A stretch of DNA of 64,000 nt from Thermoproteus uzoniensis 768-20 (lineage in GTDB: Archaea > Thermoproteota > Thermoprotei > Thermoproteales > Thermoproteaceae): positions 1,434,622 to 1,498,621 of the forward strand of contig NC_015315.1 of assembly GCF_000193375.1 (NCBI RefSeq), written 5' to 3'. Positions 11,440 to 11,765 of this stretch are shown here, piece after piece (within the stretch, counting starts at the first letter, position 1; each line of letters begins with the position of its first letter). Below the pieces are notes generated by a model. It searched no databases. It saw nothing but the letters and a program-made list of their open reading frames with translations, and had not been told where the DNA came from. The position numbers and the translations under genes were made by a program.

Positions 11440-11577
11440 CGCCTCCCACGCAAGAAGCCCCTTTTAAATTTTGTAGCGCCGCCGCGCGGCGCCGGAATTG
11501 AGGGCGATCAGCGCCCGCCATGTGCGCGAGGCCTCGTCACGTCTAGGCGTGGGTTCAAGTCATCACAGCGAGAAATC

Positions 11578-11634
11578 TACGTCAGTACTTAAAGGATTCT
11601 TCACGGATCGAGGGGGTGAAGCATCATCACGTCT
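11578..11634 (-). ncRNA. C/D box sRNA, predicted 16S rRNA 2'-O-methylation guide
   Basis: Reading the minus strand there is a C box GTGATGA (11630-11624), exactly 12 nt, a degenerate D' TCGA (11611-11608), 3 nt, a C' box GTGAAGA (11604-11598), exactly 12 nt, and a D box CTGA (11585-11582). This is the standard archaeal C-12-D'-3-C'-12-D layout. The D guide contains TCCTTTAAGT, complementary over 10 nt to the conserved archaeal 16S segment ACUUAAAGGA. By the D+5 rule the target would be U912 (E. coli numbering). A TATA-like TTTAAG lies about 23 nt upstream. The D' target was not identified. The exact RNA ends are estimated. Confidence 0.72.
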
Positions 11635-11765
11635 GTTCTCGGGCAACGTCTTAAATCCTTGTCTGCGGCCTGTCGCGCCGCCGTGCCCACGCGGGGCTTG
11701 CGCCCCGGGACGCCCAGAGAGCAAAAGGGGCATAATATCGACCGTCGGCGGAAGGACTTATATAG

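Follow-up and report, generated by a model that had tools for sequence, protein, structure and literature searches.

What does the short segment on the minus strand at positions 11630 to 11582 of this stretch of Thermoproteus uzoniensis DNA encode? The stretch analyzed, hereafter the window, is 64 kb long and lies within the complete 1,936,063-bp genome. Sequence comparison points, with a probability that we put at about 0.95, to an archaeal gene whose product, a box C/D sRNA, would direct methylation of U912 and G942 (E. coli numbering) and be an orthologue of Pyrobaculum calidifontis sR56 and, very probably, of Thermoproteus tenax sR46.

Box architecture of the RNA

On the minus strand, the sRNA body runs from box C to box D (11582 to 11630) as GTGATGA-12 nt-TCGA-3 nt-GTGAAGA-12 nt-CTGA; we delimited it by box matching, alignment, and a grammar scan. 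Written out, it reads GTGATGA TGCTTCACCCCC TCGA TCC GTGAAGA ATCCTTTAAGTA CTGA, in which TGCTTCACCCCC is the D′ guide and ATCCTTTAAGTA the D guide. Box C, GUGAUGA (11624 to 11630), conforms to RUGAUGA and is kept in 32 homologues. It is followed by the D′ guide, UGCUUCACCCCC in the RNA (11612 to 11623), then by box D′, UCGA (11608 to 11611), a variant that keeps the GA of the kink, and by a TCC spacer (11605 to 11607) between D′ and C′. Box C′, GUGAAGA (11598 to 11604), the D guide, AUCCUUUAAGUA (11586 to 11597), and box D, CUGA (11582 to 11585), complete the RNA, and both boxes are identified by sequence and by the homologue alignment. The first-pass annotation had described these four boxes with 12-3-12 spacing, and on inspection the spacing is exact. 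Its coordinates were right as well; the span takes in short flanks (ACG...CGT) that might pair as a terminal stem of 3 bp. Boxes C, D′, C′, and D in this order, two guide intervals of about 12 nt in a conserved register, and a target base paired at D+5 (U875 of the organism's own 16S rRNA for the D guide and G906 for the D′ guide) are the features of an archaeal box C/D sRNA.

A strict grammar for such RNAs (RTGATGA, 10-13 nt, NNGA, 2-6 nt, RTGANGA, 10-13 nt, CTGA) matches once in the 64-kb window and not at all in 60 simulated first-order Markov windows. With a looser pattern there are 13 matches genome-wide, versus 0 with a reversed control pattern. Minimum free energy folding of the RNA was no better than that of shuffles (z of -0.53), which is expected, since such programs do not model the kink-turns of C/D RNAs.

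Both guides are antisense to 16S rRNA

The D guide had been said to match ten bases of a highly conserved 16S stretch, and this match is indeed found in the organism's own 16S rRNA. The target ACUUAAAGGA is present, and the D guide forms ten contiguous Watson-Crick pairs within AACTTAAAGGAA; its first position (D+1) is mismatched. When rRNA sequence, flanking 16S included, was scanned, a 10-bp run was reached by 1 of 300 shuffled D guides. The D+5 nucleotide is U875 of the organism's own 16S rRNA. This corresponds to E. coli U912 in a numbering that we take to be fixed by an anchor at 907-926. The methylation site proposed from the D+5 rule thus holds as a prediction, with strong comparative evidence and published orthologues assigned the same predicted site. 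E. coli position 912 lies in a 16S region tied to decoding and the streptomycin response, so a conserved methyl group there would be functionally plausible. The modification lists for H. volcanii hold nothing at 912.

The D′ guide was given no target in the first-pass annotation, whose reading of a C/D guide RNA directed to U912 is supported but was incomplete on this point. This guide is antisense to GGGGUGAAGC of the organism's own 16S rRNA, with ten contiguous Watson-Crick pairs, and its D′+5 nucleotide is G906, or E. coli G942. The region around both targets reads GCTGAAACTTAAAGGAATTGGCGGGGGGGCACCACAAGGGGTGAAGCTTG. Because the D′ guide is also antisense to 16S rRNA, only 31 nt from U912, the RNA is a double guide. 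The D′ guide is of low complexity, and in the same scan of rRNA sequence, flanking 16S included, 24 of 300 shuffled D′ guides also attained 10 bp; taken by itself this match is thus weak, and it is conservation that supports it. In T. uzoniensis the D′ guide also has a second pairing of equal quality, at G1455 of its 16S rRNA (about E. coli G1489, in h44). A scan of the organism's own 23S rRNA found no match as good as the 16S ones for either guide.

Conservation and exchange of the partner guide

We searched 61 genomes for the C′-guide-D unit and found it in nearly all Thermoproteaceae genomes and in many of a sister family, f2, usually as a single copy. The entire unit, with GCTTCACC upstream of C′-guide-D, occurs at 32 loci in these two families. 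In their alignment, box C is followed by GCTTCACC, a D′ with GA in it, box C′, and T(C)CTTTAAG, and two variable positions separate the last of these from box D. These loci were chosen by the presence of the D′ core GCUUCACC, which is hence in all 32; along with it they keep C, D′, C′, UCCUUUAAG, and D, and their flanks are divergent or unrelated. The core of the D guide is near-invariant. The gap between AAG and box D is exactly two nucleotides at all 32 loci, although the letters vary, and this fixed gap means that D+5 stays on U912. The D′ register is mostly kept. On the side of the rRNA, both targets are intact, with zero mismatches, in 23 of 45 genomes, many of the misses falling in incomplete genomes; other misses may reflect single changes. 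Of the 12 other Thermoproteaceae genomes with a completeness of 96% or more, 11 have both targets intact.

The U912 guide also occurs with other partners. At loci L029, L068-L070, and L084-L090, in other Thermoproteota, a D guide is aimed at U912 in the same register as in the window RNA, whereas the D′ guide that accompanies it is complementary to the h27 5′ strand, at position 849 or 854 of the T. uzoniensis 16S rRNA, rather than to h29. Families f5, f12, and f25 carry a D′ guide near GGCCGUACUC that is directed to 854, and f28, probably the Sulfolobaceae, one near CUACUUCCCAG directed to 849. As judged from these sequences, the U912 guide is conserved and its partner depends on lineage. Modular evolution of guides is a pattern already in the literature, with which this exchange is consistent; the swap across families is a neat and testable case of a published principle. 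A bolder view, which we put forward tentatively and regard as less likely than not, takes the U912 guide for an ancient module, fixed throughout the Thermoproteota, whose second guide is swapped by lineage between h29 and the h27 5′ strand. The conserved feature would then be a clamp that grips 16S rRNA at two points around h27 and the central pseudoknot while the rRNA folds, with Um912 as the fixed point.

Proposed function

The course of events predicted for T. uzoniensis, from expression through RNP assembly to methylation and any role in folding, is as follows. An RNA of about 50 to 60 nt would arise either by transcription from an upstream TATA promoter of its own or by trimming of a transcript that it shares with a second RNA. 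Its C/D motif would fold as a kink-turn and C′/D′ as a kink-loop, to be bound by L7Ae, Nop5, and fibrillarin. The D guide would pair with 16S 910-919 and direct 2′-O-methylation of U912, which lies next to the central pseudoknot at the base of h27, and the D′ guide would pair with its own 16S target and direct methylation of G942 in h29. The two sites fit within about 40 nt, so that a single particle can bind them at once, and this may aid folding of the 16S core region.

It could be argued that the two contacts serve chiefly as an rRNA-folding chaperone for h27, h28, and h29, with methylation weak or secondary at one site. The guide cores are conserved past the modified base, and the D′ partner guides of other lineages also land close by, on the h27 5′ strand. 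Moreover, chaperoning has been proposed in the literature for such RNAs, among which P. calidifontis sR56 and T. tenax sR46 are listed. However, the D+5 register is strictly kept, which methylation needs and bare pairing does not. We consider a chiefly chaperoning role unlikely, if worth keeping in mind, and favor dual methylation.

More improbable still is that the D′ guide in T. uzoniensis acts chiefly on h44 (about G1489), near the decoding site, and not on G942. The organism's own D′ guide forms 10 Watson-Crick pairs and one wobble with GGGGGUGAAGUC in h44, with no mismatch near box D′. But the D′ guides of relatives keep GCUUCACC, a full match to GGUGAAGC at 942 that needs a wobble at h44, and the D′ targets published for the P. 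calidifontis orthologue are not in h44. That the locus resembles a C/D box RNA by chance can be dismissed: the motifs are short and the Rfam search gave nothing at cut-off, but conservation in two families, dual 16S complementarity, and zero simulated matches rule this out.

Promoter and genomic context

The TATA-like element GATTTAAG (11650 to 11657, minus strand) is centered 23.5 nt upstream of box C. Over the 32 homologues, A/T content peaks 24 to 30 nt upstream of box C, counted from its UGA, which indicates, at the level of sequence, that the gene has its own promoter. A TATA-like box at the right distance had been noted before; the promoter-like signal is conserved, but the element here is a few nucleotides closer than the textbook -26. 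A sigma-70 and terminator scan, which is unsuited to archaea, returned nothing. Farther upstream, at about 11680-11712 of the window, there is a GC-rich palindromic stretch, GCCCACGCGGGGCTTGCGCCCCG, which recurs elsewhere in the genome and in several relatives.

A second, tandem C/D-like RNA (11508 to 11566, minus strand) lies 15 nt downstream of the first; it is conserved across the Thermoproteaceae, near pyrG. Through its D′ guide, (C/G)TTGAACCCACG, it is complementary to a T-arm sequence, CGUGGGUUCAA, that Leu tRNAs share with one Ser tRNA. The T-arm sequence occurs exactly at eight other places in the genome, six of them within Leu tRNAs and one within a Ser tRNA as called by ARAGORN. The C′-D interval of the second RNA is atypical, since at 20-24 nt it exceeds the length of an ordinary guide, and gave no good match to rRNA. 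We rejected a hairpin in this interval, since its folding was no better than that of shuffles.

In the genus, the gene is flanked by the S14-S8 ribosomal protein genes on one side and pyrG on the other. The two-RNA cassette faces S14 in the window species and at L061, and faces pyrG at L063 and L064. Its orientation thus differs between species while its place is kept, meaning that it was inverted in place. The same picture, a cassette that stays between S14 and pyrG and flips, is seen over L061, L063, L064, and L065.

Comparison with known C/D sRNAs

Rfam 15 gave no hit that reached its cut-off, either for the C/D RNA in the window or for six orthologue loci. The best weak covariance match, over 11580-11636, is to sR41 (RF01126), at 16.1 bits (E of 0.12), far below the cut-off of 54 bits, and does not establish a shared family. 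Much closer likenesses come from Dennis et al. 2015 (PMC4644070), whose RNA-Seq catalogue of C/D sRNAs covers seven archaea, P. calidifontis and T. tenax among them; the apparent orthologues from both species are in published RNA-Seq catalogues. Table 3 of that paper gives P. calidifontis sR56 a D target at 16S U894 and D′ targets at G1358 and G925. These correspond to 875, 1336, and 906 in the T. uzoniensis 16S rRNA, so that the D target and one D′ target are those of the window RNA, and the spacing of 31 between 894 and 925 is the same. Locus L052 carries an orthologue of the window RNA in a genome that we infer to be P. calidifontis. At 1336 of the T. uzoniensis 16S rRNA, where this third site would be expected, the P. 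calidifontis D′ guide forms six contiguous pairs. This distant extra D′ target differs from the alternative D′ site of the window species, which is in h44.

For T. tenax sR46, the same table (PMC4644070) gives U547 and "984," with a D′ target at G924; U547 and G924 correspond to 530 and 905 in T. uzoniensis. Locus L064 appears to be the T. tenax orthologue of the window RNA. Its D′ guide, one nucleotide longer, fits G924, a register one nucleotide off that of the window RNA, and its second-best D site fits U547. No plausible pairing of an L064 guide was found near 16S 984, and "984" is therefore probably a misprint of 894. Membership of T. tenax sR46 in the family, which is very probable, requires that these digits were transposed. 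With this locus, a genome with poor small-RNA annotation gains a well-supported guide RNA gene for which both targets have been assigned. The RNA joins a published family of double-guide C/D box sRNAs as a new orthologue, of a kind already known in sister species.
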